Source: Dulcicalothrix desertica PCC 7102
GTDB taxonomy: Bacteria; Cyanobacteriota; Cyanobacteriia; Cyanobacteriales; Nostocaceae
Assembly (NCBI RefSeq): GCF_003991905.1
Contig: NZ_RSCL01000005.1
Coordinates: 124,001 to 188,000, forward strand
Length of the DNA stretch: 64,000 bases
Direction of reading: 5' to 3'
Both the position numbers and the translations under genes were made by a program. The notes under the pieces were generated by a model, which did not search any database, was not told the origin of the DNA, and saw only the letters and a list, made by a program, of their open reading frames with translations. This document shows, piece after piece, positions 1 through 64,000 of this stretch (its first letter is position 1; each line of letters begins with the position of its first letter).

Positions 1-97
1 GCTTTTGTCATAGTGTCAAAGTTAGGTTTATTATAAAATCTCTAACGGCTCTAAAAAAGGGTTATAAGTTTACTTTAGAACAAAGTGATAATCTTGA

Positions 98-193
98 AGA
101 TGCTACCCTGCGGGAAAACTCCGTTTACGTTCCTCAGCATGACATTAGATGCTACCCTGCGGGAAAACTCCGTTTACGTTCCTCAGCATGACA
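98..193. repeat. Two tandem copies of a 47-bp repeat
   Basis: Two identical 47-bp units at 98-144 and 147-193 are separated by 2 bp. Each contains the core TGCGGGAAAACTCCG followed by TTTACGTTCCTCAGCATGACA. Related sequence lies at 44243-44278 and a partial match (CCTCAGCATGACA) near 58760, so this is a dispersed intergenic family. No coding potential is evident; the flanking bases 1-97 and 194-252 show nothing recognisable. Confidence 0.85.
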
Positions 194-252
194 CTGTAGT
201 TCGGAATAGGACAGGCTTGCAATGCCTATCCTACAAGGATGGTTAATTAGGC

Positions 253-780
253 TTAGATTACATTTGCGACTGCTGCGTATTTGGTCGCTAAATCTGCTGG
301 CGCCATTGTTTCGTATGGTTCAAATGGTTGGTGAATCCACGGATTATCGGCTAGGTAGTCAACGTAGTAATCTGGTTCAATTACTGAGCAGGCTTTATAC
401 CAAAGTACGGCAGTACGAATATCTTCGATTTGAGTTGCGCTATATTGTTTAAGCCAAGGGATGGTTTCTTTGAGGGTAACGCCTGAGTCTACTAAATCGT
501 CAACTAGTAGAATCCGCGAGCCTAGGGTATCGGTTGTCATTGCTAAATGTTGGGAAAAGATTAGGTTCCCCCTTTCTTGCTTGCCCACGCCGCTGTAAGA
601 TGATGTAGCGAAAATTGCTAGGGGCTTGTCGTAAATGCGTGAGAGGATATCTCCAACTCTGAGTCCTCCGCGTGCTAGACAAATAATTTGGTTGAATTCC
701 CAGCCAGACTGATAAATCTTAGCCGCGAGTAGTTCGATTTTTTGGTGGTAATCTGACCAAGAAACGTAAAGGTCTGGCAT
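253..780 (-). CDS. Phosphoribosyltransferase family protein
   Basis: This 175-residue protein has the type I phosphoribosyltransferase signature: a PRPP-binding loop seen as ILLVDDLVDSGVTL near residue 93, preceded by a substrate-side stretch with ICLARGGLRVGD. The family transfers phosphoribose from PRPP to purine-type bases; the length fits the xanthine/hypoxanthine-type (COG2236-like) group in the cytoplasm. Exact substrate cannot be read from sequence. I chose the ATG at 778-780 (MPDLYVSW) over a TTG two codons upstream. It is transcribed divergently from the sugar symporter, with under 60 bp between the starts, so the promoters must be tightly packed. A GGCGCC site lies near its 3' end. 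Confidence 0.85.
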   Translation of the reverse strand: MPDLYVSWSDYHQKIELLAAKIYQSGWEFNQIICLARGGLRVGDILSRIYDKPLAIFATSSYSGVGKQERGNLIFSQHLAMTTDTLGSRILLVDDLVDSGVTLKETIPWLKQYSATQIEDIRTAVLWYKACSVIEPDYYVDYLADNPWIHQPFEPYETMAPADLATKYAAVANVI

Positions 781-838
781 AAACAACCTGGTGATAGCTA
801 ATAATACTAATTGTCGAGCTTTGACTATCTTATTATGA

Positions 839-2296
839 GTGCGAAGATTTATGAAGGATTCTGATTTAGATTATATGAGGAGCAAGGCTGGTGAGAAGCT
901 GAATTTAAGTACTAAGCTAGCTTACGGCGCCGGAGATTTAGGTCCAGCGATTACTGCGAATATCTCAGTTTTTTTCTTGCTGGTTTTTTTTACTAACGTC
1001 GCGGGTATTCCGGCGGGGATGGCTGGCAGTATTTTGATGATAGGGAAAATTTGGGATGCTATAAACGACCCGTTTGTTGGGTATTTGACGGATAAGACAA
1101 AATCAAAGCGGTGGGGGCGCCGTTTACCTTGGTTGCTTTATGGTGCAATTCCGTTTGGAATATTTTTCTTTCTACAATGGATAGTACCACGGTTTGGTAG
1201 TGGTGAGAGTAATACTTGGGGTTTGTTTTGGTACTATGTGGCAATAGGGATATGTTCACAGGTGTTTTACACGGTTGTGAATTTGCCATATACGGCGATG
1301 ACACCCGAACTGACACAAGATTATGATGAGCGCACAGGCTTAAATAGTTATCGATTTGCGTTTTCGATTGGCGGTAGTATTTTTTCATTAATATTGGCAA
1401 GAATTATTTTTGGCGCCGTTCCTGACCGTCAGATGCAGTATGTTGTTCTAGCTGCGATATGTGGAGTGATTTCTGTAGCTTCTTTATATTGGTGTGTGTT
1501 TGGAACACGTAAACGGGTTTTGGCTTTTGAAGCAAAGCGTATTCAAACCGAAGAAGAATCTGCTTTTTCAATAAAAGAGCAGCTAACAGCAGTTTTTACT
1601 AATATTCCTTTTTTATATGTAATTGGTATATATCTTTTTTCCTGGCTTGCCGTGCAAATCACTGCTAGCATTATTCCCTATTTCGTTGTTGAGTGTATGG
1701 GTTTGAAAGAATCTGATGTACCAACGGTAATGATAGGGGTACAGGGTACTGCTTTACTAATGTTATTTGTATGGAGTGCTTTAAGTAAGCGTGTTGGTAA
1801 AAAAATCGTTTACTTTTCGGGGATGACTTTGTGGATATTAGCAGCAGCAGGATTATATTTTTTACAACCTGGTCAAATTGGGTTAATGTACGTTTTGGCG
1901 GTAATGGCAGGGTTTGGTGTTTCCACAGCATATCTCGTTCCTTGGTCAATGATTCCTGATGTGATTGAACTCGATGAACTTCAAACAGGACAGCGACGTG
2001 AGGGAATTTTCTATGGTTTTATGGTGCTGCTACAAAAATTTGGGTTAGCATTTGGTTTATTTGTTGTGGGTTTGTCACTCGAAGCATCTGGTTTTAAAGC
2101 AGTATCTGCTGGAAGTGGCGCCTTACCAGTTCAACCAGAGTCAGCACTTCATGCTATACGCATCGCGGTTGGTCCCCTGCCATTGGTTTCACTAATATTA
2201 GGTTTGGTTTTAACTTACTTCTATCCCATCACGCGGGAAATGCACGCCGAAATATTATTAAAGTTAAAACAGCGTCAAGAAGCAAAAGAGAATTAA
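839..2296 (+). CDS. MFS transporter, GPH (glycoside-pentoside-hexuronide):cation symporter family
   Basis: The 485-residue hydrophobic protein has about 12 predicted membrane segments. Its N-terminal half carries the GPH-family pattern: LSTKLAYGAGDLGPAI at the start, then WDAINDPFVGYLTDKTKS with the Asp-rich loop, followed by a basic WGRRLPW stretch. The family imports sugars or related solutes with H+ or Na+ across the inner membrane; the substrate is not determinable here. The reading frame opens with GTG at 839; an in-frame ATG at 851 is an equally plausible start. The stop is only 3 bp ahead of the methyltransferase ATG, so the two are probably co-transcribed. Confidence 0.85.
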   Translation: MRRFMKDSDLDYMRSKAGEKLNLSTKLAYGAGDLGPAITANISVFFLLVFFTNVAGIPAGMAGSILMIGKIWDAINDPFVGYLTDKTKSKRWGRRLPWLLYGAIPFGIFFFLQWIVPRFGSGESNTWGLFWYYVAIGICSQVFYTVVNLPYTAMTPELTQDYDERTGLNSYRFAFSIGGSIFSLILARIIFGAVPDRQMQYVVLAAICGVISVASLYWCVFGTRKRVLAFEAKRIQTEEESAFSIKEQLTAVFTNIPFLYVIGIYLFSWLAVQITASIIPYFVVECMGLKESDVPTVMIGVQGTALLMLFVWSALSKRVGKKIVYFSGMTLWILAAAGLYFLQPGQIGLMYVLAVMAGFGVSTAYLVPWSMIPDVIELDELQTGQRREGIFYGFMVLLQKFGLAFGLFVVGLSLEASGFKAVSAGSGALPVQPESALHAIRIAVGPLPLVSLILGLVLTYFYPITREMHAEILLKLKQRQEAKEN

Positions 2297-2299
2297 AAT

Positions 2300-2893
2300 A
2301 TGCCAAACCAAGAAGATTGGGAACAACAGTACCAAGAGAAAAATACTCGTTGGGATATTGGACAAGCGGCGCCACCTTTTGTTAGTCTACTATCTTCAGA
2401 TTCGGCGCCTTTACCTGGACGTATGGCAATACTAGGATGCGGACGTGGGTATGATGCGGTACTATTTGCCAAACATGGTTTTGAAGTTACTGGGTTTGAC
2501 TTTGCAACTTCCGCAATTGTGGAAGCGGAACAAATTGCTAAGTCAGAAAATTGTGACATTCAGTTTTTACAGCGTGATATTTTTGATTTACCTGAAGAAT
2601 TTACAGGTTATTTTGACTATATTCTGGAACATACCTGTTTTTGTGCAATTGATATAGAACGGCGCCTTTCTTACGTAGAAGTTGCAAGTTCCATACTTAA
2701 ACCACATGGTCAGCTAATTGGGTTGTTTTTTACACATAATCGTCCTGGTGGCCCTCCATTTGGCGTCACACCAGAGGAAATAAGGGAGTATTTTCAGGAT
2801 AATTTTAAAATTCATTATTTAAATCTTGTGGCGAATTCAGTGGCATCGCGTCAAGGGGAGGAGCATTTGGGACTGTTTGAATTAAATAAATGA
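2300..2893 (+). CDS. SAM-dependent methyltransferase, TPMT/thiol-methyltransferase-like
   Basis: This 197-residue class I methyltransferase has its SAM-binding glycine motif in ILGCGRGYDAVLFAKHGF (about residues 44-61) and the acidic post-motif GFDFATSAIVEAE. The N-terminal DWEQQYQEKNTRWDIGQAAP is typical of the thiopurine S-methyltransferase / halide-thiol methyltransferase group, which methylates small sulfur, selenium or halide substrates in the cytoplasm. Length matches that family. The start ATG lies 3 bp after the symporter stop, suggesting an operon. The natural substrate cannot be inferred. Confidence 0.87.
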   Translation: MPNQEDWEQQYQEKNTRWDIGQAAPPFVSLLSSDSAPLPGRMAILGCGRGYDAVLFAKHGFEVTGFDFATSAIVEAEQIAKSENCDIQFLQRDIFDLPEEFTGYFDYILEHTCFCAIDIERRLSYVEVASSILKPHGQLIGLFFTHNRPGGPPFGVTPEEIREYFQDNFKIHYLNLVANSVASRQGEEHLGLFELNK

Positions 2894-3019
2894 CGGTTAT
2901 CTCTCTACTCTAAGAGGAAAAATACACCTTTCCTGACATGGAGCAAATTGCAATAATACTTAATATTCTAGAATACTAGAATCATAAATATAAGTAGCAA
3001 AAGCGCTCTCATACAATAG

Positions 3020-3700
3020 ATGGCTACTCCTAGTTTAGACGAACTATCTGCCCAGCTAGAAAGTTCTAGCTTACGTGACCGCATGGTTGCCCTTGCAAAT
3101 TTGCGCGATGTGTCTGCCGAGGAAGCAGTACCCTTGATTAAGAAGGTGTTGAATGATGAATCGCTGCAAATTCGAGCGATGGCAGTTTTTGCACTTGGTA
3201 TCAAGCAAACTGCTGAATCATATCCAATTTTGGTGAATATCGTTGAAAACGACCCCGACTATAGTATTCGCGCTGATGCGGCAGGCGCCTTGGGATACTT
3301 AGAAGACAAACGCGCGTTTGAAGTGTTGGTACGGGTGTTTTATGAAGAGACTAATTGGTTAGTAAGATTTAGCGCTGCTGTAGCATTGGGTAATTTAAAA
3401 GACCCACGGGCACGTGAAACATTAATTAGCGCGTTAGATGGGCCAGAAGTAGTATTGCAACAAGCGGCAATTGCTGCGCTTGGTGAAATTAAAGATGTAA
3501 CCGCAGTAGATGAAATACTTCGCTTTGCTCAAGCTGAAGATTGGTTAGTGCGTCAACGACTAGCAGAAGCTTTAGGAAATCTTCCTAGTCCAAAAAGCGT
3601 TTCAGCATTGAAATATCTTGAAAAAGACAGTCATTATCACGTTTCTGAGTCTGCTAAAATTTCTTTAAAACGCCTAGAAGAAGCAGGTTATCCAGTTTAA
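3020..3700 (+). CDS. HEAT-repeat protein, NblB/CpcE-like
   Basis: The 226-residue protein consists almost entirely of about six HEAT-like helical repeats of roughly 31 residues, seen as recurring VRxxAAxALG patterns (e.g. VRFSAAVALGNLKDPRA). In cyanobacteria proteins of this size and composition belong to the NblB / bilin-lyase-like HEAT group that interacts with phycobiliproteins. Its neighbour 170 bp downstream is a CpcS/CpeS-type bilin lyase, which supports a role in phycobilisome assembly or turnover. Whether it is a true NblB or another HEAT scaffold cannot be decided by eye. An AT-rich 120-bp region precedes the ATG. Confidence 0.75.
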   Translation: MATPSLDELSAQLESSSLRDRMVALANLRDVSAEEAVPLIKKVLNDESLQIRAMAVFALGIKQTAESYPILVNIVENDPDYSIRADAAGALGYLEDKRAFEVLVRVFYEETNWLVRFSAAVALGNLKDPRARETLISALDGPEVVLQQAAIAALGEIKDVTAVDEILRFAQAEDWLVRQRLAEALGNLPSPKSVSALKYLEKDSHYHVSESAKISLKRLEEAGYPV

Positions 3701-3707
3701 AGAAGTA

Positions 3708-3746
3708 CACTCGTTGTAAGCACTCGTTGTAAGCACTCGTTGTAAG
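3708..3746. repeat. Three tandem copies of a 13-bp unit
   Basis: The 13-mer CACTCGTTGTAAG is repeated three times without gaps, followed by a related CACTTCAGTGCTT that can form a small hairpin. It sits just after the HEAT-protein stop and before the bilin lyase gene. It may act as an intercistronic or terminator-like element, but only the repeat itself is certain. Confidence 0.85.
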
Positions 3747-3868
3747 CACTTCAGTGCTTTCCCCATAAAGACTGAAGTTTTTACTACCTTAATGCTCAAT
3801 AATAAAAACTAGAAGATAAGGACTAAAGTCCTTAATACGAACATCATTTAATTAAGGCGTGAGAAACG

Positions 3869-4420
3869 ATGAATATTCAAGACTTTTTTGAATTAAGTGC
3901 CGGAAAATGGTTTGCCCATCGTACTGTTCAAGACTTAGGCGCCAATAAAGCAAACGAAGCTAAATCAGAAATTGTTATAGAAAAATTATCAGCAACTCAC
4001 CCTGATGTAGTGAAACTTTGCGAAGTTTTACAAGTAAACTCCAATTCTTCTGTTGTTGCAGCTAAGGTTAATTGGAATGATACAACTAAACTGAACCAAA
4101 AAAACGTAGGTACAACAGTTTTAGTTTTAGTTCCTGGCAATAATGCTGATGAGGGTAAGCTGTTACGTCAGGTTAGTAACGAAGATAAACCTTCGCTGGG
4201 TCAATATAAATTAGGTGAAGATGAAGCATTATCGCTATCGTTTGAATCTGGCACAACTTCTTATGAAGAACGTTTGTGGTTTGCCAGCGATAATCTGAGA
4301 ATGCGCGTTAATGTCATTAAGCAAGCAGGTGGTGTAAATACTACTTCTTTCACTACCGAAATACGTATGGGTGTTCCTCCTGCTAAAGAATCTCAAGCTG
4401 CAAGTTCAGCATCTAGTTAA
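3869..4420 (+). CDS. Phycobiliprotein bilin lyase, CpcS/CpeS family
   Basis: This 183-residue protein matches the CpcS/CpeS (T-type fold excluded) chromophore lyase family: the N-terminal MNIQDFFELSAGKWFAHRT and the C-terminal EERLWFASDNLRMRVNVI plus TEIRMG are the family's hallmark stretches. The family attaches phycocyanobilin or related bilins to cysteines of phycobiliproteins in the cytoplasm. The central region is divergent from the best-known CpcS/CpcU sequences, so the specific bilin and target subunit are not assigned. It has a Ser/Ala-rich tail. A GTGAGAAACG stretch precedes the ATG. It follows the NblB-like HEAT gene. Confidence 0.85.
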   Translation: MNIQDFFELSAGKWFAHRTVQDLGANKANEAKSEIVIEKLSATHPDVVKLCEVLQVNSNSSVVAAKVNWNDTTKLNQKNVGTTVLVLVPGNNADEGKLLRQVSNEDKPSLGQYKLGEDEALSLSFESGTTSYEERLWFASDNLRMRVNVIKQAGGVNTTSFTTEIRMGVPPAKESQAASSASS

Positions 4421-4434
4421 AGATTATCCCCCAA

Positions 4435-4454
4435 CCCCCCGCGAATTCGGGGGG
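4435..4454. terminator. GC-rich hairpin between convergent genes
   Basis: Seven C/G bases at 4435-4441 pair perfectly with 4448-4454 around a six-base CGAATT loop. It lies between the bilin lyase stop and the 3' end of the first DUF4058 gene, where a bidirectional terminator is expected. T-rich sequence follows on the plus strand about 20 bp later. Confidence 0.55.
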
Positions 4455-4476
4455 CTAAAAATAGCTTTATTTTCCC

Positions 4477-49509: not shown

Positions 49510-52500
49510 CTAAATAACAGGAAGGTTAATCATAAACTCGGCGCCTTCCCCAGGTGCTGAATTGACTTTAATAGTTCCACCGTGTTTCTCAACAACAATT
49601 TGGTGAGCAATTGCCAATCCCAACCCCGTACCTTTACCAACGCTTTTAGTAGTAAATAAATGGTCAAAAATACGTTCCTTAACTGACTCGCTTATTCCCT
49701 TTCCATTATCTTTAATACTAATTGTTACTTGTTTTTCGTCTATATTAACCGAGGTTTTAACTGTAATGCGATTAGCGTTGGCTTTAATTTCTGCAAAAGT
49801 ACGTCCGTTATTTGACTCTTCCAAAGCATCAATTGCGTTAGCAAGCAAATTCATAAATACCTGATTTAGTTGACCGGGGAAACACTGCACCTGGGGAATT
49901 TGACCATAGTCTGTTATGACTTCAACTGCTGGACGATTTTCCGAGGCTTTAAGACGGTGTTTGAGGATGAGGATTGTACTGTCGATACCATCATGGATAT
50001 TAAAACTAACTGGTATATCTGTATCTGCACGAGAAAATGTCCGTAAACTATTGGAGATACTTCGGATGCGCTTCACTCCTTCTTTCATTGAAGAAAGTAG
50101 TTTGGGTAAATCTTCGCGCACATATTCTAAGTTTATAGTTTCAATTTCATCTTTAATTTCTGCACCGGGATTGGGAAATTTTTCCTGGTATAAATCAACT
50201 ACACCAAACACATCTTTTACGTAATCAAGTGCGGGTTCTATATTTCCAGCAATAAAGCCAACTGGGTTATTAATCTCATGTGCTACACCTGCAACCAAAT
50301 TACCCAAAGCTGACATTTTTTCATTTTGTACTAGTTGCAGTTGCATCTGCTTTAAGTCTGACAAAGATTGTTCTAATTGTTGAGCATAATTTTGTGCTTG
50401 AGTCGCATAGTCTTGCGCTTGTTTATAAAGACGAGCATTTTCTAAAGAAATTGCCACTTGTGAAACTAACAAGTTAAGAAGTTGTATTCTATCTGTTGTA
50501 AAAGCTCCAGTTATCAGACGATTTTCTAAGTATAATATCCCAGTTAAATTACCTTGGTTGATAATTGGAGTACACAATATACTACGAGGTTGTTCCCGTT
50601 GAATGTAGTCATCAGCTATCCATGCTATTTTTGCAGTTGCATGATCAATTACTAATGTTTCTAGAGTATTTTTTACATAGTAAATAATGCTATGAGGGAT
50701 ATCAAGGCTTTCTGCAATAGGGATAGATTGTAGGACTTTTGTTTCAGTTTCTTGCTGGTTATGAGAAATTTGAGCAATTACTTCAATGACTAAATTGTTA
50801 TCTCTGTGCAACAACAAAGCAGCTTTTTTCGCTCCTGCATTTTCTATCACAACTTGCATGAGGGTAGCAAGCAAATTGTCTAATTGAATTTCGCTAGAAA
50901 TTGTTTGAGATGCTTTAATTACTGCTGGTAAGTCGAGAATTGATGTGGTTGTGGTGCTGGTGGAATGAATGGTGTTAGCAGAGTTTATCAAAATAGTTCC
51001 ACGTTCTGCACTCAAGTTAGGCTCGAATTTGAGAACGGGGGAAAGCAGTTCGGGATAGCGTTTTTCTAAATCATCAACTTTAGCTTTAGCACCCCAACGT
51101 CCATAGCAATAATAAGCATTTGTTATGTAAACTCTAGCAAATTGTTCTCTACCATCATCAAGATATAATTTAGCAGCAAGCTCATTAGCAAGAGCTTCAA
51201 TATTAAGATATTCATTTTCCTTTGCAAGAGAAATAGCGCGGTCGTAGAGCGTAATAGCTTGAAATTTTTGACCTAAAACCCGATGTCGTTCAGCTTCAAC
51301 AAGATAGTATTGATGCAAATGATTCATAGGAGCAGTACTTGCTACTTTATGCAGCTTTTTCTGATTGCTTTGCGCTCGTTTCATCAACTGTTTTTGTTGA
51401 GCAGGTGGAGATTGGTTAAAGAGAGCCAAACAAATTAAAGAGTCATAAAAATAGGAGTTTGGTAAAATAAATGTCGAAGTTGCAGCTTCTGCATATTTTT
51501 TTGCTACATCTGCCGACTCAAGAGCTTGCTGATATTCTCCAAATAAGTAACGAGCAATAGATTGAAATACAGAAGTAAAAAATACACCTGGTTTATCACC
51601 TAATTCTATTTGTAAATTTAATTTTTCTGTTTCATCAAAAACTTCACCTTTGAGAATATGTGGCGATTGAGAATTCCCTTTTAAATTAAGAACTAGTTGA
51701 GCGAGAGCATCAATATAATTCTGTGCAGCTGACTGCTTCAGTTGAGCAACAACATTATGATATATCTGTAATTTATTTTCTAATTTGATTAAATCAAAAC
51801 CACTTAAATAAAGATGTTGGCAGTAAATCATTACTGACCAAGAAGCATATTCAATATCTCCGCTGTTTATACCAGCTTGATAAGCCTCTAACAAAGAATC
51901 TAATGTTGTATTAACATGGTTTTTCCAAGGTTTTATGAAGGCGTAAACCATGAAAATAACTTTACATTCAATCTCTTTAGCATTAAAGGCTTGGAGAATT
52001 TTTAAAGAAAGTTCTCCAAACTGATAACCTGTTTGGACATTCCCTAAAATTCCACATAGAATTAATGCGTAGCAGACATATCCAAATGCAGACAGACGAT
52101 GGTTTCCCATTTTCAGACACAGATTAAGATTTTTAAATACTAGTAGTGCCATCAACTTGGGTGAACTAATATAAGCAGCAGAAACTACGCTGAATAATAG
52201 GCGAGTCGCTGCTATTGTCTCAGAATGATTCATTCTTGGTAAGCTCACCAAAGCATCCACTGGTTTCCCAGCTAATGCAATCTTGGTTCCAACTAAACCT
52301 AGTAAAACTTGTGCCATACTCGGTTGGGTTGGTAATTGAATACCGAGTGTATTTAAAATATATAAAGCAGCATTAATCGCTTTTGGTGATTGATTTTGTG
52401 CGACATAAGCTTGAATTTTTATTTCGTAAACTCTTACTTGGTCTGAAATTTTTTTACTATGCTTTATAATTGTTTGAGCATTTTCTTCCATCTGGTCAAA

Positions 52501-54966
52501 ATTTCCTAAAAGATAGGAAACTTCAGCATCCTCTTCGTAAATTGCAAGTGTTAATTCATACTGATTTTTCCAAGCTTCTGCTTCTAATAGTTGTTTTCCG
52601 ACAGCTAAATAGCTGCTTGCTGCCACATATGCTATTGTACTCTTGGCTTTTTGTGCTGCTTGCAAATTTAATTGAGCTAGCTGTTGACGGGGAGCAACCT
52701 GCGTAATTAGGTTAATTCCCAAATTGAAATGACCTACAATATCAAATAACTTTTCTTCCAGTTCTACTTGAGAAATTCCATTTAATAATAATTGTCCAAT
52801 TTTTAGATGAGTCGTTTGTTTTTTATCATCAGGAATTAGAGAGTAAGCTGCTTGTTGAACGCGGTCATGAAGAAAGCGATATTTAACTAACTCATGATGA
52901 CTTGTTTGTAACTGCTTATTCGATTTAAGATTATTTTCTTGATAAAACTTGTAAATTTCACTTTCTGGTAAGACCAATCCTTCCTGTAAAGCTCTCCATA
53001 AATTTGCGGCTGTTTCTTGCAGCGATATTTGCGAAACAACGGAGAGGGTAGTTAAATCAAATTGGTTGCCAATACAAGCCGCTAATTTTAATAATGACTG
53101 GGTTGGCTGCGGTAATTTTTGTAATTGCAGCGCCACAAATTCGACAACATCATCAGTCATTGCTAAGGCTCTTATTCGAGCAATATCACATTGCCAAATT
53201 CCGATATTAAAATCAAAAGTAATCAGCCCATCTTCATATAGTGCCTTAAGGAACTGCGTTGTAAAAAATGGATTACCCTTTGTTTTTTGATAAACTAATT
53301 CTGCAAACTGCTGGGAAATAGAAAAATTACAACTGAGCGTATCTGCAACTAAATTATTTATATCTAATTCACTTAGCGCATCTAACGTAATAGTCTTTAC
53401 GGTTGCCCCTGCTTTTTTCATCTCATCCACTGTCAAAATAAACGGATGAGATGGTGACACTTCATTATCTCGATATGCTCCAATAACTAATAAATACTCA
53501 TTATTTCTTTCACTCATTAATAATTGGATTAACTTTAGCGATGCTGAATCAGCCCACTGTAAATCATCCAAGAAAATTACTAGTGGATGTTCTTTGCAAG
53601 TAAATACTTTAATAAAATTTTTAAATAATAAATTAAATCGATTTTGGGCAGCATTTCCAGATAACTCAGGCACTGGTGGTTGTTGACCAATAATTGTTTC
53701 TAATTCGGGGATAACTTCGATAATTACCTGTCCATTTTCACCCACTGCTGCTGAAATATTCGCCTTCCATTTTTGTAATTGAGCATCACTTTCACTCAAT
53801 AATTGCCCCATAAAATCACGGAAAGACTGCACAAAAGCACTGAATGGAATGTTACGTTGAAACTGGTCGTATTTACCTTTAATAAAATAACCACGTTGAC
53901 GAACTATTGGTTTGTGAACTTCAGAAACAACTGCAGTTTTACCAATACCAGAAAAACCTGCTACAAGTATCATTTGTGTACTACCTAGACTCACCCTATC
54001 AAATGCTTCTAGCAATGTTTCAACTTCTTTTTCTCGACCGTAGAGTTTTTCTGGAATTAAGAAACGGTCGCAAATATCCCTTTGTCCTAATGTCAAATCA
54101 GCAATCTTACCAGTCTCTTTATATTGATACAAACAGTTTTCTAGGTCATATTTCAACCCTAAAGCGCTTTGATAGCGGTCTTCGGCATTTTTCGCCATCA
54201 GTTTGGCAATAATGTTTGATATAACTAATGGAATTTCTGGGTTAATGCTATGTGCTGGTAATGCTTGTTTGGCAATATGAGAATGCACCAATTCCATTGG
54301 CTCATTGCTAACAAAAGGCAATTTTCCTGTTAGTAATTCGTAGAAGGTAACGCCTAAGCTGTAAAAATCTGTACGATAATCAACCAAGCGGTTCATTCGT
54401 CCTGTTTGTTCTGGCGAGATATAACCTAAAGTACCTTCCAAAATATTTGGATTTTGTAGTTGTTGTGTTTCTCGTGGTAGAAGTGAGGAAATGCTTAAAT
54501 CTATGAGTTTTATTTGTCTCGTTTGCGGATGAATTAATATATTTGCAGGTTTGATATCTTTATGGATAACGTGGTGACGATGTAATCCGTCAAGAATTGT
54601 GGCAATTTGTACAGCAATACTCAAAAAATCTGCTTTATCCTTCGCTCCCCAGTCCCCGTTTTGCACTACCCACTCTTTAAGGGAAACACCATCAAAATCT
54701 TCCATCACCAGAGCATAGCCATTGTAGTGAGTTTCTAAGCTGTAGGGTTTGATAATGCCAGGAATGTCCAGGTTGAGGGCAATAGTGTACTGGTTACGGA
54801 ACTGAACAATTTCGCTAAAACTGGGATATTCATTCCGCATCAGCTTGATAATAACAGTCTGAAGGTCTTTTTCCCGTATGGCTCTATATACTAATGTTCT
54901 AGTACCTGCGTAGATTTGTTCCTTGATGCTGTAACCCAAAACGTTGACCATTGTATCCCCCATCAT
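49510..54966 (-). CDS. Giant Ser/Thr kinase-ATPase-GAF-histidine kinase (HstK-type)
   Basis: The 1818-residue cytoplasmic protein has, in order: a eukaryote-type kinase domain (residues 8-270; VIHKDIKPANILIH near 134, KLIDLSISS where DFG is usual, GYISPEQTGRMNR), an AAA ATPase domain (Walker A GFSGIGKTAVV near 339, VIFLDDLQWAD), a long helical TPR-like region (about 700-1280), a GAF domain (about 1355-1515), a coiled coil and a histidine kinase core (VAHEINNPVGFI near 1564, NLLANAIDAL near 1710, GTGLGLAIAHQIV). It matches the cyanobacterial multi-kinase family. Except for one site near its 3' end it lacks GGCGCC motifs. Confidence 0.93.
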   Translation of the reverse strand: MMGDTMVNVLGYSIKEQIYAGTRTLVYRAIREKDLQTVIIKLMRNEYPSFSEIVQFRNQYTIALNLDIPGIIKPYSLETHYNGYALVMEDFDGVSLKEWVVQNGDWGAKDKADFLSIAVQIATILDGLHRHHVIHKDIKPANILIHPQTRQIKLIDLSISSLLPRETQQLQNPNILEGTLGYISPEQTGRMNRLVDYRTDFYSLGVTFYELLTGKLPFVSNEPMELVHSHIAKQALPAHSINPEIPLVISNIIAKLMAKNAEDRYQSALGLKYDLENCLYQYKETGKIADLTLGQRDICDRFLIPEKLYGREKEVETLLEAFDRVSLGSTQMILVAGFSGIGKTAVVSEVHKPIVRQRGYFIKGKYDQFQRNIPFSAFVQSFRDFMGQLLSESDAQLQKWKANISAAVGENGQVIIEVIPELETIIGQQPPVPELSGNAAQNRFNLLFKNFIKVFTCKEHPLVIFLDDLQWADSASLKLIQLLMSERNNEYLLVIGAYRDNEVSPSHPFILTVDEMKKAGATVKTITLDALSELDINNLVADTLSCNFSISQQFAELVYQKTKGNPFFTTQFLKALYEDGLITFDFNIGIWQCDIARIRALAMTDDVVEFVALQLQKLPQPTQSLLKLAACIGNQFDLTTLSVVSQISLQETAANLWRALQEGLVLPESEIYKFYQENNLKSNKQLQTSHHELVKYRFLHDRVQQAAYSLIPDDKKQTTHLKIGQLLLNGISQVELEEKLFDIVGHFNLGINLITQVAPRQQLAQLNLQAAQKAKSTIAYVAASSYLAVGKQLLEAEAWKNQYELTLAIYEEDAEVSYLLGNFDQMEENAQTIIKHSKKISDQVRVYEIKIQAYVAQNQSPKAINAALYILNTLGIQLPTQPSMAQVLLGLVGTKIALAGKPVDALVSLPRMNHSETIAATRLLFSVVSAAYISSPKLMALLVFKNLNLCLKMGNHRLSAFGYVCYALILCGILGNVQTGYQFGELSLKILQAFNAKEIECKVIFMVYAFIKPWKNHVNTTLDSLLEAYQAGINSGDIEYASWSVMIYCQHLYLSGFDLIKLENKLQIYHNVVAQLKQSAAQNYIDALAQLVLNLKGNSQSPHILKGEVFDETEKLNLQIELGDKPGVFFTSVFQSIARYLFGEYQQALESADVAKKYAEAATSTFILPNSYFYDSLICLALFNQSPPAQQKQLMKRAQSNQKKLHKVASTAPMNHLHQYYLVEAERHRVLGQKFQAITLYDRAISLAKENEYLNIEALANELAAKLYLDDGREQFARVYITNAYYCYGRWGAKAKVDDLEKRYPELLSPVLKFEPNLSAERGTILINSANTIHSTSTTTTSILDLPAVIKASQTISSEIQLDNLLATLMQVVIENAGAKKAALLLHRDNNLVIEVIAQISHNQQETETKVLQSIPIAESLDIPHSIIYYVKNTLETLVIDHATAKIAWIADDYIQREQPRSILCTPIINQGNLTGILYLENRLITGAFTTDRIQLLNLLVSQVAISLENARLYKQAQDYATQAQNYAQQLEQSLSDLKQMQLQLVQNEKMSALGNLVAGVAHEINNPVGFIAGNIEPALDYVKDVFGVVDLYQEKFPNPGAEIKDEIETINLEYVREDLPKLLSSMKEGVKRIRSISNSLRTFSRADTDIPVSFNIHDGIDSTILILKHRLKASENRPAVEVITDYGQIPQVQCFPGQLNQVFMNLLANAIDALEESNNGRTFAEIKANANRITVKTSVNIDEKQVTISIKDNGKGISESVKERIFDHLFTTKSVGKGTGLGLAIAHQIVVEKHGGTIKVNSAPGEGAEFMINLPVI

Positions 54967-55167
54967 CCTGCAAACAGCTTGTTTTTTGTTCTTCTTAACT
55001 TAGTGTTCCCAGATTGAACTAAAAAATAATCAGAAGTATTGAAGCCTATAACCACAACTGAGAGTTCGGAATAATTGAAATAAGTATTTTCACTAAACAC
55101 ATTTATAATGATAATGGAATAGAATCAAACATTAGTGATATTATTTTTATTCAATCATAAAAAATAG

Positions 55168-57621
55168 ATGAAGCCATCATATATATCGACTTATTTCTTA
55201 GGGTTATTGCTACTACTTCCAGGTGTTGGTTCTGCACAGATTCTTCCTGATAGAACGACTAAAACGCAAATAATACCTGATACCTTGATGAATGGTGACA
55301 TAATCAACGGTGGTTTAATAAGTGGTGGTAACTTATTTCATAGTTTTAGCGAATTTAATGTCAATGCTGGACGTGCAGTATACTTTGCCAACCCTAATAA
55401 TATTACCAATATATTTACCCGAATTACAGGCAATAATTCATCAAGTATTAATGATACGCTTGGAGTATTGGGGAATGCAAATTTATTTTTAATGAATCCG
55501 AATGGAATTGTATTTGGAACTAATGCGAAATTAGATATAAAAGGTTCGTTTTTGGGAACTACAGCAGATACAATTAACTTTGCTGACGGTTCTATGTTCA
55601 CTACTGCCACCAATTCAACACAAAGCACTCCTCTAATTACTCAAAGTGTACCAATAGGATTAGGATTTGGAAGTCAACAAGCGTCTATTACAGTTAATGG
55701 TAAAGGTCATAATCTCACTACAGATACAAGACTACCAGCAGGAAATGCACCAACTGTCCGAACTCTTAATCAGGGTTTACGTGTATCTCCAGGTAAAACA
55801 TTAGCATTAGTCGGCGGAAATGTTAACCTTGATGGTGGTGTTTTGACTGCAGAAACAGGGAGGATAGAAATTGGTGGTGTCGGTAGTGGACAAGTTAAAA
55901 TAACACCAACTGACTCAGGATTTGCTTTGGATTATGCAAGTACCTCAAATTTTGGTGATATTTTTCTTAAAAACCAATCCTTAGTTGATGTTAGTGGCGT
56001 AAATGCGGGTCAACTACAAATTCAAGGTCGTCGAATCAATCTCAGTGATGCTTCTGTGGTACTTTCTCAAAATTTGGGCAATAATAATGCGTCGGACATG
56101 AAAATTCATGCATCTGAAGCTATTGAGTTAAGCGGTACTAATAGAAATGGTCGAGTTCGCACAGGATTTCATAGCGAAACTTTAGCTAGGGGTAGAAGTA
56201 GTAATATTGATGTCAAAACACCATTACTATTACAACAACAGGGTGCTGGTATAGTAAATTCTAGCTTTAATGTGGGTACTACCGGAGAAATAAACGTAAA
56301 TGCTAATGATATTAGATTAATCGGTGCCTCTGCTACAAATCCAGCAATTGCAACTGCGCTAACTACGGCAACATATGGGACAGGAGTCGCTGGAAATATT
56401 AAAGTTAATGCCCAAAAGATATTAATGTTAGGTGGTTCTTTCTTATCTAGTAATACTTACAGCCGTTCTAGTTTGGGTATGGGTGGTAATGTCATTGTCA
56501 ATGCTGATGATATTCAAGTTTCTGGCGCCACTCCCCTAGCATCAACAACTGCAATCGCTTCTGCAAGTTTTGGTGCAGCAAAAGCTGGCAATTTAACTGT
56601 AAATACTAAAACATTGCAACTTCTAGAAAGTGCTTCAGTTTCAGCAACCGCTTTTGCTAGTGGAGACGCTGGTAATGTTAATATCAATGCTGCTAACTCA
56701 ATTAAAGTTATTGGTTCAAACCAAGCCCTAGGTAACAGTACTATTAACTCCTCTGTAACTATAGCGCCTCTTGAATTTCAAAGAATATTAGGAATATCTG
56801 GCAACCCGACAGCAAATGCTGGCACGGTGTTAATTAAAACACCACAATTAACCATAACAAATCTAGGTGCGGTTAGCGTGAGAAACGCTGGTCAAGGTAA
56901 CGGTGGGGAGCTTCAAATTATTGCAAATTCAATTCAATTCAAAAAGGGGGGGAAAATTCAATCACGGAGTCAAAATGGTTTCGGTGGTAATATTTACGTG
57001 CAAGCTAATGAAATGCAATTACAAAAAAATAGTCTGATTAGTGCTGCTGCTGGTGGTACAGGTCAAGGAGGAAACATTAATTTAAATACCGATAGCATTG
57101 TTTTGCTAGAAAACAGTAATATTACTGCAAATGCTATTCGCGGTCAAGGAGGACGTATTAATATTAATACTCAAGGTATTTTTAGCTCACCCAATAGTGA
57201 AATTACAGCTTCTTCCGAAGTTGGTATCGATGGTGTAGTTCAAATTATAACTCCTGATATTAAGCAAGAAAATAATTTACAACAACAACCTAGTAATTTT
57301 GTGATACAGGAAACTATTGTGGCAAATAGTTGTTTAGTGAATCGCAATGCTCAAACTAGTCAATTTGTGGTTACAGGTAATGGAGGTGTTCCAGAAGCTC
57401 CTGATACTCCAAATATAGAATATTCTCTATTGCAGGTGATGCCAACGTCAGCAAGTGTAAACGCACAGTCTATAGTACCTGAAAGTTCTAAATTATCTTC
57501 TTGGAAAGCCGGTGATAGGATTGAAGAGGCTATTCAATTAGTCAGAACTAAAGACGGTAGATTACTTTTGGCTAGCAGCAATCATCATAACTATAAGGAT
57601 TTGAAACAACTTACATGTTAA
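55168..57621 (+). CDS. Filamentous haemagglutinin N-terminal domain protein (two-partner secretion)
   Basis: An 817-residue exported protein with a signal peptide ending VGSAQI and the TPS domain (residues 25-150; NIFTRITGNNSSSI, LFLMNPNGIVFGTNA), followed by a beta-helix rich in short Gly/Asn repeats (AGNVNINAANSIKV, GGNVIVNADDI). Such TpsA proteins are secreted through a TpsB outer-membrane partner and act in adhesion or matrix. No TpsB gene is in the window. It has only one GGCGCC site. A C-terminal cysteine pair lies in VANSCLVNRNAQ and QLTC. Confidence 0.92.
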   Translation: MKPSYISTYFLGLLLLLPGVGSAQILPDRTTKTQIIPDTLMNGDIINGGLISGGNLFHSFSEFNVNAGRAVYFANPNNITNIFTRITGNNSSSINDTLGVLGNANLFLMNPNGIVFGTNAKLDIKGSFLGTTADTINFADGSMFTTATNSTQSTPLITQSVPIGLGFGSQQASITVNGKGHNLTTDTRLPAGNAPTVRTLNQGLRVSPGKTLALVGGNVNLDGGVLTAETGRIEIGGVGSGQVKITPTDSGFALDYASTSNFGDIFLKNQSLVDVSGVNAGQLQIQGRRINLSDASVVLSQNLGNNNASDMKIHASEAIELSGTNRNGRVRTGFHSETLARGRSSNIDVKTPLLLQQQGAGIVNSSFNVGTTGEINVNANDIRLIGASATNPAIATALTTATYGTGVAGNIKVNAQKILMLGGSFLSSNTYSRSSLGMGGNVIVNADDIQVSGATPLASTTAIASASFGAAKAGNLTVNTKTLQLLESASVSATAFASGDAGNVNINAANSIKVIGSNQALGNSTINSSVTIAPLEFQRILGISGNPTANAGTVLIKTPQLTITNLGAVSVRNAGQGNGGELQIIANSIQFKKGGKIQSRSQNGFGGNIYVQANEMQLQKNSLISAAAGGTGQGGNINLNTDSIVLLENSNITANAIRGQGGRININTQGIFSSPNSEITASSEVGIDGVVQIITPDIKQENNLQQQPSNFVIQETIVANSCLVNRNAQTSQFVVTGNGGVPEAPDTPNIEYSLLQVMPTSASVNAQSIVPESSKLSSWKAGDRIEEAIQLVRTKDGRLLLASSNHHNYKDLKQLTC

Positions 57622-59354: not shown

Positions 59355-59957
59355 GTTTATTCTCTCTGTTACTTAGCCTGATGTTGAGTTTGATTGACAT
59401 GCCAAAACAAACGCACAACCATATAGATAAGCGTTTTGGCTATGAAGTCAACTTGAATATTCGTCAACATTACCCCTAACTGCTAACTGGTATCCTGCAT
59501 CTAAGGTTAGGTATTTTGAACGGCGCCACTCGAAATTTCACGCTCAAAAATGCTGCGTTACAGGAGTGTAATGCTGATTTTGATGCCAAATATTGCGACT
59601 ATAGTGGATTTTGGCGGCAAACACCACTTAGGGTTTACGGTTGACGCGAATTACTTACAGTATTATTTCTCATACATTAGACGAAGTGAAATAAAACAAA
59701 TTGTGAGTTTGAAAGCTGCTGCATGGAGTCAATTGGCTGACCGTCCGTTAAATTGTTCGGGAAACCACCCTTCATGGAGAGGCTACACAGGCTCAGTATA
59801 TATATCAGCATAGTTATGGGTTTTCACCCTCTTGAAGCCAAAATCTAAGGTTTGAAGTGCTGAACTGGTTGCAAATCGCGCAACTAGGTTGGTTTAATTT
59901 TCTCGCCCTTATTACGTCCATTTATTAATTTGTAGTTAAACGGAGCCAGCACCTACA
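59355..59957. promoter_or_regulatory. Long divergent promoter region upstream of dnaK
   Basis: 600 bp with no convincing gene; an 87-codon plus-strand frame at 59550-59813 has unconvincing composition. It holds one GGCGCC site and the dnaK leader. I saw no CIRCE-type TTAGCACTC inverted repeat. The long leader suggests complex regulation of dnaK. Confidence 0.5.
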
Positions 59958-61877
59958 ATGGCAAAAGTAGTTGGAATAGACTTAGGAACAACTAACTCCT
60001 GCGTGGCAGTCATGGAAGGTGGTAAACCCACAGTTATTGCTAACGCTGAAGGTTTTCGCACCACTCCCTCGGTTGTTGCGTTTGCGAAAAATGGAGACCG
60101 CTTGGTTGGTCAAATCGCCAAACGTCAAGCGGTAATGAACCCTGAGAATACTTTTTATTCAGTAAAACGCTTTATCGGACGCCGCTTCGAGGAAGTTACA
60201 AATGAAGCTACGGAAATCTCATATAAAATTTTACAGAGCGGTGGAAACATTAAATTAGACTGCTCTGCAGCAGGCAAGCAGTTTGCACCAGAAGAAATTT
60301 CCGCACAAGTTCTTCGTAAATTAGTTGAAGACGCTAGTAAGTATCTTGGTGAAACTGTCACTCAGGCAGTAATTACCGTACCTGCTTACTTTAACGACTC
60401 ACAACGTCAAGCAACCAAAGACGCAGGTAAAATTGCGGGTATTGAAGTATTACGGATTATCAACGAACCTACTGCTGCATCGTTAGCATACGGTTTTGAT
60501 AAGAAGAGCAACGAAACAATTCTTGTATTTGACCTTGGTGGTGGTACTTTCGACGTATCTGTCCTTGAAGTAGGAGATGGAGTATTTGAAGTACTTGCAA
60601 CCTCTGGTGATACCCACTTAGGTGGTGACGACTTCGACAAAAAAATCGTTGACTTCCTTGCTGAAGAATTCCGCAGAGCGGAAGGTATCGACCTTCGTAA
60701 GGACAAACAAGCGTTACAACGTTTAACAGAAGCAGCAGAGAAAGCAAAAATCGAACTTTCGAGCGTTACCCAAGCCGAAATCAACCTGCCTTTTATCACT
60801 GCAACACAAGATGGTCCTAAGCACCTCGACACAACGTTAACACGCGCACGCTTCGAGGAACTTTGCTCTGACTTGATTGACCGTTGCCGCATTCCTGTTG
60901 AAAATGCGTTACGTGACGCGAAACTCAGCAAGACTGATATTGATGAAGTTGTATTAGTTGGTGGTTCGACTCGTATCCCTGCAGTACAACAGTTAGTTAA
61001 GACTGCATTAGGTAAAGACCCTAACCAAACAGTAAACCCTGATGAAGTGGTAGCTGTTGGCGCCGCAATTCAAGCTGGTGTATTAGCTGGTGACGTTACT
61101 GGTATCTTATTGTTAGACGTAACACCACTTTCTCTAGGTGTGGAAACCTTGGGTGGTGTAATGACTAAGATTATTCCTCGTAACACAACCATTCCTACCA
61201 AGAAGTCAGAAGTATTCTCTACCGCAGTTGACGGACAAACAAACGTAGAAATTCACGTCCTCCAAGGTGAGCGTGAAATGTCCAACGACAACAAGAGCTT
61301 AGGAACTTTCCGTCTTGATGGTATTCCTCCAGCACCTCGTGGTGTTCCCCAAATTGAAGTTGTGTTCGATATCGACGCTAATGGTATCTTGAACGTAACT
61401 GCAAAAGACAAGGGTACAGGTAAGGAACAGTCTATTAGTATTACTGGCGCCTCCACCCTCGACAAGACAGACGTTGAGCGCATGGTACGTGATGCAGAAC
61501 AAAACGCATCAACCGACAAAGAACGTCGCGAAAAAATCGACCGTAAAAACCAAGCTGACTCTTTGGCATACCAAGCAGAGAAGCAAATTCAAGAACTTGG
61601 TGACAAAGTACCCGCAGCAGACAAAACCAAAGTTGAAGGTTTGGTTAAAGACCTCAAAGACGCTGTTGCAAAAGAAGACGACGAGCAAATCAAACGCATT
61701 ATGCCCGAATTGCAACAAGCACTATTTGCAGTTGGTAGCAGCATCTATCAACAAGGTGGTGACGCTGGCGCCCCTGGTGCTGGTGCCCCTGGTGCTGATC
61801 CTGGTTCTGCTGGCGGAGCATCGGAAGGTGGTAGCGGTGATGACGTAATTGACGCGGATTTCACTGAATCTAAGTAA
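59958..61877 (+). CDS. dnaK: Chaperone DnaK (Hsp70)
   Basis: The 639-residue Hsp70 is complete: [17 protein letters not shown] at the N-terminus, [15 protein letters not shown] near residue 197, [14 protein letters not shown] near residue 340, substrate domain [17 protein letters not shown] and a Gly/Ala-rich linker ending [12 protein letters not shown]. The sequence matches the DnaK2-type, the essential housekeeping paralogue of cyanobacteria. It folds and protects cytoplasmic proteins with DnaJ and GrpE (not in this window). Codon use is biased as for a highly expressed gene. ACGGAGCC precedes the ATG by about 12 bp. Confidence 0.97.
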
Positions 61878-61925
61878 TTATTTCGTAATTACATTTCCAG
61901 GTTAAATCTGGGAACATTAAAATAT

Positions 61926-61957
61926 CCACACTAGCTTTTGTTAGTGTGGGTTTTTGT
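61926..61957 (+). terminator. Rho-independent terminator of dnaK
   Basis: CCACACTA (61926-61933) pairs with TAGTGTGG (61942-61949) and is followed by a T-rich run. It lies about 50 bp after the dnaK stop. Confidence 0.85.
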
Positions 61958-61977
61958 TGTTAAGAGGGGGTTGTTTT

Positions 61978-62076
61978 GCAACGGATGTAACGGATGTAAC
62001 GGATGATTTATTTGTTACAAACAGAGTTTAGTTATTTAAAACTACTTATCCGTTACATCCGTTCATCATCCGTTGC
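61978..62076. mobile_element. 99-bp CGGAT-type MITE-like element, copy 4
   Basis: Same length as copy 1 at 40324 and similar throughout. Left end GCAACGGATGTAACGGATG, interior TTACAAACAG and GTTATTTAAAA, right end ATCCGTTCATCATCCGTTGC. The terminal inverted repeats are made of CGGAT units. It lies between the dnaK terminator and the MscS gene 3' end. Confidence 0.85.
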
Positions 62077-62142
62077 TAATTATTTTACCCACCAAATTTA
62101 ATGACATGGAACACTACACTTTAAAGATGCAGTTTAATTCGC

Positions 62143-63261
62143 TTAATATTTGTCTATTTCCACCAAAAGCGAAACTTGTAATTCTTCTATTGATTGCTTT
62201 TCCAACATTTGAATTATAGCTAAATTAATCGCGGCTTCAGCGTCGTGATACTTGTTAAAATCGTCGGTAAACGTGCGTAGCCTAAACACGCGAGCATTTG
62301 CTTCAATTCCTTGTAGTCGAACTTGACAGTTAGGGGAAACTAAATCAATGGTCTTTGGTATTTCTTGTAAAGCTTGGTAAATAATAGCAGATTGTTCTGC
62401 AGAAAGTTTATCGATTTTTAGGGTGAAATTAAGACCATATGAAGGTTTATCTGAGGGATTTTGTGTCCAATTTTCTACAATACCAGTAATCATTTTTGAG
62501 TTAGGAATTTTTTGGATAGAATTCCATTTAGCAACACGCAATTTTGTACTTCTCAAACCGATTTCTAGAACGTTGGCAAAACCGTCAATTCCTGCAATAA
62601 TTAATCTATCTCCCGGTTGATACAGCTTATCGAGGAAAATAATTACAGTGCAAAACCAGTCATAAATCACATCTTTAATTAGTAAACCAAAAGCTACACC
62701 TGCTCCACCTAATAAACCAATTAGCGCTGAGGCAGATGCACCTAGCAATATTTCAGATGCCTTGATAACTACAACTAAAATAGCAGCGACCTGAAATAAC
62801 TTTGGTAAATAGGGAAGAAGTAAATTATCAAGTTCAGTTTCGGTACTAGCTGCGAACTTTCTGAGCGCTTTGCCAAGTAACGGTGAAACATGGTATACAA
62901 TATAGGCACCGATACTAATAGCTAGAAAATTTATAATTTTTCCACTTAGTTGAGTTATTTGAACTCCAAGTTCTGGCGCCAGAATTAACTGTCCAACCCA
63001 CAGTCCAGCTAACAAAATTAACCAGCCAGTCGGTTGCTTGAGAATTTCAATTAATTCATCATCTAAAGACGTTTTATCTTCACTTGCTAATAATTCAAGC
63101 CTACGAATAATTACAGATAGAAAAAAATGTTTTGAAGCTTGTGTGATTACAATAATTAGGACAAAAAGCAAAATTTTTAAAATTGGTATACTCGTAAGAT
63201 TGATATTATAATCAATAATAGTGTGTTTGATTGCGTCTAAAAATTGCTGTTGGTTTTCCAT
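62143..63261 (-). CDS. MscS-family mechanosensitive channel
   Basis: About 372 residues from the ATG at 63261 (MENQQQFL); an upstream TTG-type extension of 11 residues is rejected. It has four or five membrane helices and the MscS pore and beta domain: LLGGAGVAFGLLIKDVIYDW near residue 195 (Gly/Ala-rich pore helix), FLDKLYQPGDRLIIAGI and KIPNSKMITGIVENWTQ. The C-terminal mixed domain is present. It releases solutes on osmotic downshock across the inner membrane. Confidence 0.88.
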   Translation of the reverse strand: MENQQQFLDAIKHTIIDYNINLTSIPILKILLFVLIIVITQASKHFFLSVIIRRLELLASEDKTSLDDELIEILKQPTGWLILLAGLWVGQLILAPELGVQITQLSGKIINFLAISIGAYIVYHVSPLLGKALRKFAASTETELDNLLLPYLPKLFQVAAILVVVIKASEILLGASASALIGLLGGAGVAFGLLIKDVIYDWFCTVIIFLDKLYQPGDRLIIAGIDGFANVLEIGLRSTKLRVAKWNSIQKIPNSKMITGIVENWTQNPSDKPSYGLNFTLKIDKLSAEQSAIIYQALQEIPKTIDLVSPNCQVRLQGIEANARVFRLRTFTDDFNKYHDAEAAINLAIIQMLEKQSIEELQVSLLVEIDKY

Positions 63262-63647
63262 AGTTAATTTACATCTTGTAAAAAAAAACTGCAAACTAAA
63301 TCATTGACATTGCTTTGAAAAATGATACAGGTTTTGCTGGGTTTTAAATATATATTATTTAACATTTGACAACAAAGAACAATATTATGCTCCAGAGGTT
63401 GTACGCTTTTATGACTGGATAATGAGTAAACGGTGCCTAAGAAGAAAGCTTATGTCTTTTAAGCTAAAACCTTTGATAGTAGCGCGAACGATAACAGTAA
63501 TCTATACTCTTGCTAAGGTTAAATAAGACCAAAATTTGAAGCAGGTAATTTTGGATGATGACCCTAAGCTATTTAATATATTGGTGGGAGCATAACCTAG
63601 ATATTTCGGTAATACCATAGATTCATAAGTTAATGCAGGAGGCAAAA
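63262..63647. other. Intergenic region
   Basis: About 385 bp of AT-rich sequence between the divergent MscS and acetoacetate decarboxylase-like genes. A minus-strand frame at 63502-63732 overlaps the decarboxylase-like gene and is not supported. No repeat or operator was recognised. Confidence 0.5.
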
Positions 63648-64000
63648 ATGACATATCCGATGGCGCCTTGGAATTTACAGGGTTATGCGGTGGCAACTGT
63701 GCATCTAACAGATATAGACCGCGTTCGTCCATTAATTCCCTCTGAGTTTGAGATTTTTTCTGTTTTTCCTGGTAAAACAGTTGGTGCAGTGTATGTGTCT
63801 AATTATCAACCAGGTTCGGTACTCGAATATAGCGAGTTGATTGTTGTACCTGCTTTAGTTACATATCAAGGCAAGGTTAGTGGTTGGGTATCACATATAT
63901 ATGTAGATAATCTTGACTCAGTTGCAGGTGGTCGAGAAATTTGGGGACTACCCAAGGAACTTGCTGATTTCACTTGGCTTGACAAACGTGTTTTTGTACA
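63648..64000 (+). CDS. Acetoacetate decarboxylase-like protein, partial at window edge
   Basis: The frame is open to the end of the window (117 codons visible). The start ATG at 63648 follows a GCAGGAGGC ribosome-binding site; an in-frame ATG at 63633 is an alternative. The product (MTYPMAPWNLQGYAVATVHL, then VRPLIPSEFEIFSVFPGKTV, SNYQPGSVLEYSELIVVPAL, GREIWGLPKELADFTW) matches the acetoacetate decarboxylase fold family. Many members lack decarboxylase activity; the catalytic Lys region (WGLPKE) is present. Function is not assigned. Confidence 0.8.
   Translation, partial: MTYPMAPWNLQGYAVATVHLTDIDRVRPLIPSEFEIFSVFPGKTVGAVYVSNYQPGSVLEYSELIVVPALVTYQGKVSGWVSHIYVDNLDSVAGGREIWGLPKELADFTWLDKRVFV

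Follow-up and report, generated by a model that had tools for sequence, protein, structure and literature searches.

The hexamer GGCGCC replaces HIP1 (GCGATCGC) as the highly iterated palindrome (HIP) of Dulcicalothrix desertica PCC 7102, as an earlier note on this DNA had proposed, and dense GGCGCC is a genus-wide trait among the seven genomes examined. The window, that is, the whole stretch of 64,000 bases under analysis (contig 5, positions 124001-188000, of an assembly of 11,419,637 bases in 109 contigs), contains exactly 120 GGCGCC sites against 3.5 expected from its base composition (G 20.9%, C 18.1%), in line with the earlier hand count of about 120 against about four. HIP1 has 0 copies in the window, again in agreement with the earlier note. 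On balance, it is probable, with a good deal of reserve, that a single Calothrix lineage has GGCGCC as its alternate HIP and that, in this lineage, a DpnII-type system removed HIP1 and a methylation-dependent process enriches and keeps GGCGCC.

GGCGCC is the most over-represented palindromic hexamer in the window. A maximum-order Markov model predicts 68.9 copies, a value set aside as inflated because the 5-mers of that model are mostly pieces of GGCGCC itself. A genome-wide count, suggested earlier as a check, gives 19,393 GGCGCC in the 11.42 Mb of PCC 7102 (1698/Mb), far above expectation, and 58 copies of HIP1 against 62 of a reversed control pattern. In a 264-kb sample consisting of ten 20-kb stretches and the window, 474 GGCGCC were counted, with observed/expected (O/E) ratios of 34.7, 21.3 and 27.3 under order-0, order-1 and order-2 models, respectively. 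All four symmetrical flanks are enriched in this sample under the order-1 model (TGGCGCCA 27-fold, AGGCGCCT 25-fold, CGGCGCCG 25-fold and GGGCGCCC 12-fold); consequently, the repeat unit is the bare hexamer. The palindrome CCGCGG, with an identical letter composition, has a single copy in the genome. It is a poor backward control here, since the genome carries two Eco29kI-type nuclease genes and the avoidance of CCGCGG probably has separate causes, and composition models were used in its place.

Placement was scored on 49 greedily chosen open reading frames (ORFs), which make up 83.7% of the window. The sites lie in genes and gaps alike, with 107 of the 120 wholly inside ORFs against 100.5 expected. 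All three frames are used, if unevenly (70/17/20), and the 70 sites of the commonest frame are Gly-Ala codon pairs, so that the clustering in Gly-Ala pairs reported earlier is borne out. An origin in codon usage or dinucleotide bias would fit the predominance of such pairs (70 of 107 coding sites), but it is so improbable as to be nearly negligible: 70 of the 137 Gly-Ala pairs in the window are written GGCGCC, where codon use elsewhere predicts 1.1, 13 of the 120 sites lie at least partly outside ORFs, and the excess survives order-1 and order-2 models at 21- to 27-fold. The single CCGCGG of the genome also speaks against composition, with the caveat about avoidance given above.

To define the distribution of the motif, GGCGCC and HIP1 were counted in 292 genomes, namely PCC 7102, six congeners, 165 other genomes of the family and 120 of the order. 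The congeners are the metagenome-assembled genome (MAG) C42_A2020_038 (G001), PCC 7716 (G002), NIES-4105 (G003), Calothrix PCC 7103 (G004), MAG FI2-JRJ7 (G005) and HK-06 NIES-2101 (G006). GGCGCC reaches 1150-1711/Mb in all seven genus genomes, approximately one site per 585-870 bases, and the genus, like PCC 7102 at its 1698/Mb, thus has the density that characterizes an alternate HIP (a GC-rich palindrome at about 1000-2000/Mb). The low or absent HIP1 that goes with an alternate HIP is likewise found in all seven, at 3.6-22.6/Mb. Outside the genus, the highest GGCGCC count among the 165 family genomes is that of G093 (1053 copies, 111/Mb), where CCGCGG numbers 1270; in G179 and G282 GGCGCC is numerous but HIP1 is kept (381 and 900/Mb). 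The trait is already known for one congener: Elhai 2015 (PMC4390886) names GGCGCC for Calothrix PCC 7103 as its alternate HIP, credits this strain with two GrCGyC methyltransferases and with a nuclease gene for GATC, a sequence that is very scarce there, proposes a GmeC-directed mismatch-repair ratchet, and describes exceptional HIPs as sporadic, not arranged in clades. The last remark, which is no criterion of a HIP, does not describe the present case, where all seven genus genomes carry GGCGCC. In the accessible literature, which excludes most subscription journals, PMC4390886 is the only source that has both Calothrix and GGCGCC.

A search for a methyltransferase, also suggested earlier, yields 13 C5-methyltransferase matches in 11 genes of PCC 7102, two of which, of 370 and 313 aa, have full-length relatives in all seven genus genomes. 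The 370-aa enzyme adjoins deoC. The 313-aa enzyme belongs to the HindV/BsaHI type: it shares 55% identity with a gene annotated as modification methylase HindV (hindVM), and in an alignment of 14 sequences its recognition region matches that of nuclease-linked relatives. A HindV-type enzyme, the methyltransferase predicted for the motif, is present in all seven genomes, the PCC 7102 copy being 99% identical to that of PCC 7103, and a RuBisCO-like neighbor is common to six of the seven (by BLAST cluster, with Pfam/NCBIfam applied to the PCC 7102 gene). For this family, Neely and Roberts 2008 (PMC2413257) give GRCGYC as the target and the central C as the base methylated by M.BsaHI. Because of this homology and of the C-to-T excess at the central C described below, it is very likely that the 313-aa enzyme methylates the central C of GRCGYC.

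No nuclease gene adjoins the 313-aa enzyme in PCC 7102, and the cognate nuclease that accompanies the methyltransferase in HindV/BsaHI restriction-modification systems stands beside it in none of the seven genomes. Among 23 non-genus methyltransferase loci, 17 contain an ORF of the HindVP-nuclease BLAST cluster (three were run on Pfam). A family search for the HindVP nuclease finds it in 0 of the seven genus genomes and matches 60 of the 292; the absence rests on this search, an earlier single-protein search having been empty and uninformative. Consequently, the HindV-type enzyme of the genus is no part of a restriction system. Additional HindV-type copies with approximately 59-63% identity, some of them broken, occur in G002-G006, and several searches combined find no second copy in PCC 7102 or G001; the scoring itself took at most seven candidates per genome against the HindV-type query, so that the single-copy statement also relies on the other searches. 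With one copy in these two genomes, two GRCGYC methyltransferases are not needed. Second HindV-type genes (about 60% identity) are located on plasmids in NIES-4105 and, in two pieces, in PCC 7716 (AP018291, AP018292, AP025019).

The loss of HIP1 is accompanied by a loss of GATC. PCC 7102 DNA has 32 GATC against 926 expected and 2 CGATCG against 34.5, and the congeners, sampled at 20 kb each, have 2-18 GATC against 66-74, G001 being the least depleted (18/69). A DpnII-type nuclease is present in all seven genus genomes (E 3e-92 to 5e-95); outside the genus, one marginal match was obtained in G028 (2e-4) and none in four other genomes tested. Both the D12 adenine methyltransferase and the DpnII nuclease occur in all seven by BLAST, with shared neighbors and 84-97% identity to the PCC 7102 proteins, whose pair was the one checked with Pfam. 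This DpnII-type pair can account for the disappearance of GATC and HIP1 from the genus. The family member G028 (L100-L102) has lost GATC without a clear DpnII gene (4/215 in 60 kb) and, with 535 copies in 10.7 Mb, most of its HIP1, and it has no HindV-type enzyme, no GGCGCC excess and no palindrome among its top hexamers. Losing GATC is therefore not enough to introduce GGCGCC.

For the association between enzyme and motif, HIP1 was classed as low below 150/Mb and the HindV-type enzyme as present at a best E below 1e-100. Twenty-one of the 292 genomes have low HIP1. Eight of them, the seven of the genus and G228, possess the enzyme without a HindVP match, and these show GGCGCC at 1150-2497/Mb; the remaining 13, of which 11 lack the enzyme and 2 have it together with the nuclease, show 0.1-252/Mb. 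G228 turned out to have a different octamer motif, described below, which leaves a single clade as the clear case. The 12 genomes that have the enzyme without the nuclease and keep HIP1 show 0.3-43/Mb. GGCGCC is scarce without the enzyme too, with a median of 4.85/Mb in the 212 genomes that have neither enzyme nor nuclease, and within the family the medians are 0.81 for the 44 genomes that carry the enzyme and 3.5 for the 121 that do not (p 0.006).

The GGCGCC sites are maintained against decay, as seen when the window is aligned to the six congeners (79.5-93.8% identity over 16-47 kb; in the aligned parts, PCC 7102 and the most distant genus member share about 80-86% DNA identity). In the window, 35 of 46 sites are conserved in G003 and 18 of 32 in G001, against 10/32 and 0/27 for other all-GC hexamers; in four close genomes the values are 66-86 of 83-98 against 46-56 of 75-101. 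In a second region of 60 kb, the advantage over all-GC controls is modest for close genomes (e.g., 66/88 against 107/158 in G004) and clear for the distant ones (59/76 against 61/133 and 34/55 against 21/96).

Single-genome losses are nevertheless far more numerous than gains. Among five close genomes, with a gain counted only when the other four agree, for motif and controls alike, the window columns comprise 34 fixed, 32 with a single loss, 1 with a single gain and 11 mixed, and those of the second region 33 fixed, 21 single losses, 1 gain and 14 mixed. Control hexamers are balanced (21/23 and 323/353 in the window; 28/37 and 360/375 in the second region), and a looser count over 4-7 genomes gives 36 losses against 9 gains in the window. 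This imbalance could indicate that the drive that built GGCGCC stopped recently and that the sites are now decaying, an explanation we regard as distinctly unlikely in view of the retention over longer distances. Constant decay at the tip rate predicts retention of 65% in G003 and 54% in G001, whereas 85% and 81% are seen. Of 86 G003 sites in both regions, 46 recur in each of the five close genomes, 29 in exactly four of them, and only 3 are absent from all, against approximately 18 expected under decay (P ~4e-6). The corresponding 5-GC control hexamers (n = 1776) give 591, 142 and 729; for G001, the sites (n = 49) give 23, 18 and 4, and the controls (n = 1135) 263, 62 and 708. Furthermore, every one of the seven genomes contains GGTGCC/GGCACC, at 0.11-0.29 times its count of GGCGCC, so that a late stop at nearly the same date would have to be assumed for several lineages. 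Because many sites are missing from one genome and few from all, with retention above the decay prediction, the losses are purged or reversed: they are frequent, fall mostly on the presumed methylated C and seldom last.

The commonest one-base loss is GGTGCC/GGCACC, which accounts for 20 of 32 in the window and 11 of 21 in the second region. At the center of the motif, C-to-T changes amount to 25/108 against 30/439 for the same trinucleotides outside (p 7e-6), and the second region replicates the excess (15/100 against 30/606, p 6e-4). These variants are fixed in 0 of 28 window columns and in 4 of 25 second-region columns; the statement that GGTGCC is never fixed, true for the window, was therefore rejected. 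It is conceivable, if doubtful, that the central 5-methylcytosine decays to T again and again and that a methylation-guided process, distinct from both MutH and Vsr, rewrites the palindrome across the genus. If so, a restriction methyltransferase deprived of its nuclease would have become part of a genome-wide sequence-restoring system throughout the genus. Vsr very-short-patch repair acts at Dcm sites in E. coli, and a Vsr-type repair of T:G mismatches that converts GGTGCC to GGCGCC would agree with this variant being the commonest one-base departure and rarely old. Such an origin is very improbable: no Vsr match was obtained in any of 12 genomes by a search that matches 5 of 14 control genomes, and by composition GGCGCC, GGTGCC and GGCACC together should give a total of about 57 in 264 kb, where 474 copies of GGCGCC were counted. 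Reversion of GGTGCC alone therefore cannot yield a 35-fold excess.

Within codons, the synonymous third base of GCC is kept in the motif at 44/44, 23/27 and 15/20 positions (G004, G003 and G001, respectively), against 58/82, 22/37 and 6/28 elsewhere. In GGC, the third base, presumed to be methylated, is not clearly better kept (38/44 against 63/73, 23/27 against 19/35 and 11/20 against 12/26). The conservation at GCC, seen with PCC 7103 and G001, together with the occurrence in genes and gaps alike and with near-misses that show no sign of conversion, would suit direct selection for a function independent of methylation (the site of a nucleoid or replication protein, or a recombination signal), the methyltransferase being a bystander. 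We consider this unlikely, although it deserves weight, as the trait is confined, among the 292 genomes, to a clade that has the GRCGYC methyltransferase without the nuclease and has lost HIP1, and the C-to-T excess points to methylation of the sites.

The alternate-HIP interpretation would involve the following steps. The HindV/BsaHI-type methyltransferase would have lost its nuclease partner earlier, to judge from the absence of the latter in all seven genomes; a DpnII-type GATC restriction-modification pair fixed in the lineage would account for the removal of GATC and, hence, of HIP1. The orphan enzyme would methylate the central C of GRCGYC, and the GGCGCC form would be enriched and kept by a methylation-dependent process, most likely through strand marks in mismatch repair, or through a repair bias. 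A repair route of this type would resemble Elhai's GmeC model, with the action through repair presumed and the maintenance visible in the seven-genome comparison. The GmeC model is still the best frame, because only one of the four GRCGYC forms, GGCGCC, is enriched, as the model predicts for the end state.

Several observations weigh against this interpretation. The other GRCGYC forms are depleted (observed/expected 1/34.5 for GACGTC, 8/22.6 for GGCGTC and 8/20.8 for GACGCC), so the form that is kept is narrower than the methyltransferase target. Outside the genus, 54 genomes combine the enzyme with any HindVP match, and their median GGCGCC density is 0.92/Mb; the methyltransferase alone therefore does not make the motif. 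The seven genus genomes form a single clade, which makes the association in essence one event. At the remaining motif positions, C-to-T changes (6/225) are not significantly rarer than at all C and G outside the motif (534/10157, p 0.09), and the tip losses are uneven (G004 20, G006 13, G005 12, G002 4, PCC 7102 4), in part, perhaps, as a result of culture history or sequencing. Near-misses other than GGTGCC, away from motif columns, are as long-lived as controls (11/41 fixed in five genomes against 414/1624 5-GC controls), thus giving no sign of a general ratchet or conversion toward GGCGCC, and single gains are as rare as one per region. MutH was found in 0 of the seven genus genomes, in addition to the negative search for Vsr. 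The probability of the interpretation is slightly lowered by the persistence of near-misses, the scarcity of gains and the missing repair protein. The earlier suggestion of a different methyltransferase or repair pressure is nonetheless supported by the enzyme in all seven genomes and by site maintenance, methylation and the repair step being presumed.

Compared with the alternate HIP of PCC 7103, as given in Elhai 2015, the present one shares the motif, the genus, the absence of HIP1, a GRCGYC methyltransferase and scarce GATC with a GATC nuclease gene; it differs in being a clade trait of seven genomes and in the single methyltransferase copy of PCC 7102 and G001. Like the HIP1 of most cyanobacteria, GGCGCC is a dense GC-rich palindrome with a cognate methyltransferase (for GGCGCC, a predicted one); unlike HIP1, it has another sequence, which contains no GATC, and HIP1 is absent where it is dense. 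With the HindV/BsaHI/HgiDI family (PMC2413257) the genus has in common a related methyltransferase with a similar recognition region, whereas the HindVP-type nuclease is lacking and GGCGCC is in excess, not rare. The alternate HIP GGCGCC has thus been known for the congener PCC 7103 since 2015; the present analysis adds that the trait extends over a clade, that the enzyme stands without a nuclease and can be single-copy, that the genus has a DpnII pair in common, and that losses at the base presumed to be methylated are short-lived. The purpose of HIP sequences is an old question, for which this genus offers a natural swap of palindrome and methyltransferase that is stable over its divergence. 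An alternate HIP can therefore persist as a clade trait, and because site loss is measurable here, the role of methylation-guided repair in keeping the palindrome can be tested directly.

Table 1. Positions of the motif, of window features and of restriction-modification genes in PCC 7102.
Feature	Position	Strand	Remarks
GGCGCC sites	1..64000	.	120 sites, bare hexamer
GGCGCC-free stretch	49540..56524	.	6,984 bp, GC 36%; longest such stretch in window
1818-aa kinase/AAA/histidine-kinase ORF	49510-54966	-	fills most of the GGCGCC-free stretch
TPS-domain ORF	55168-57621	+	partly inside the GGCGCC-free stretch
313-aa HindV/BsaHI-type C5-methyltransferase	L024:7731-8672	-	PF00145, 219 bits; outside window
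DpnII-type GATC restriction-modification pair	L207:3502-5519	+	D12 methyltransferase, then nuclease; outside window
Eco29kI-type restriction-modification pair (first of two)	L030:7146-8983		methyltransferases of the two pairs 77% identical
Eco29kI-type restriction-modification pair (second of two)	L031:6885-8744		
C5-methyltransferase with BsuBI/PstI-type nuclease gene	L027:4148-6177		
C5-methyltransferase with Bpu10I-type nuclease gene	L023:5972-8157		
C5-methyltransferase with TdeIII-type nuclease gene	L022:7179-9052		

The GGCGCC-free stretch listed in Table 1 could be recently acquired DNA. GGCC is avoided in the window (11 against 92 expected), and likewise in the sampled congeners, G012 and G028. 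The PCC 7102 genome is rich in restriction genes, with further C5-methyltransferases that have nuclease genes.

For G228, a genome of another family with a HindV-type enzyme (54%), no HindVP match and HIP1 lost, 9489 GGCGCC were counted in 3.8 Mb. It was considered as a second origin of the GGCGCC HIP and rejected, the unit in a 219-kb sample being CGGCGCCG together with CAGCGCCG, while TGGCGCCA is absent. The dense octamers reach order-1 ratios (O/E1) of 25 for CGGCGCCG and 26 for CAGCGCCG (L103, L104, L106, L186-L195), and G228 apparently carries another alternate HIP. Among its congeners, G206 and G246 keep HIP1. A further congener, G178 (L107, L199, L200), with HIP1 at 36/Mb, GGCC 3-fold over expectation (808/266 in 60 kb) and CAGGGCCA at an O/E1 of 12, may represent a further replaced HIP.

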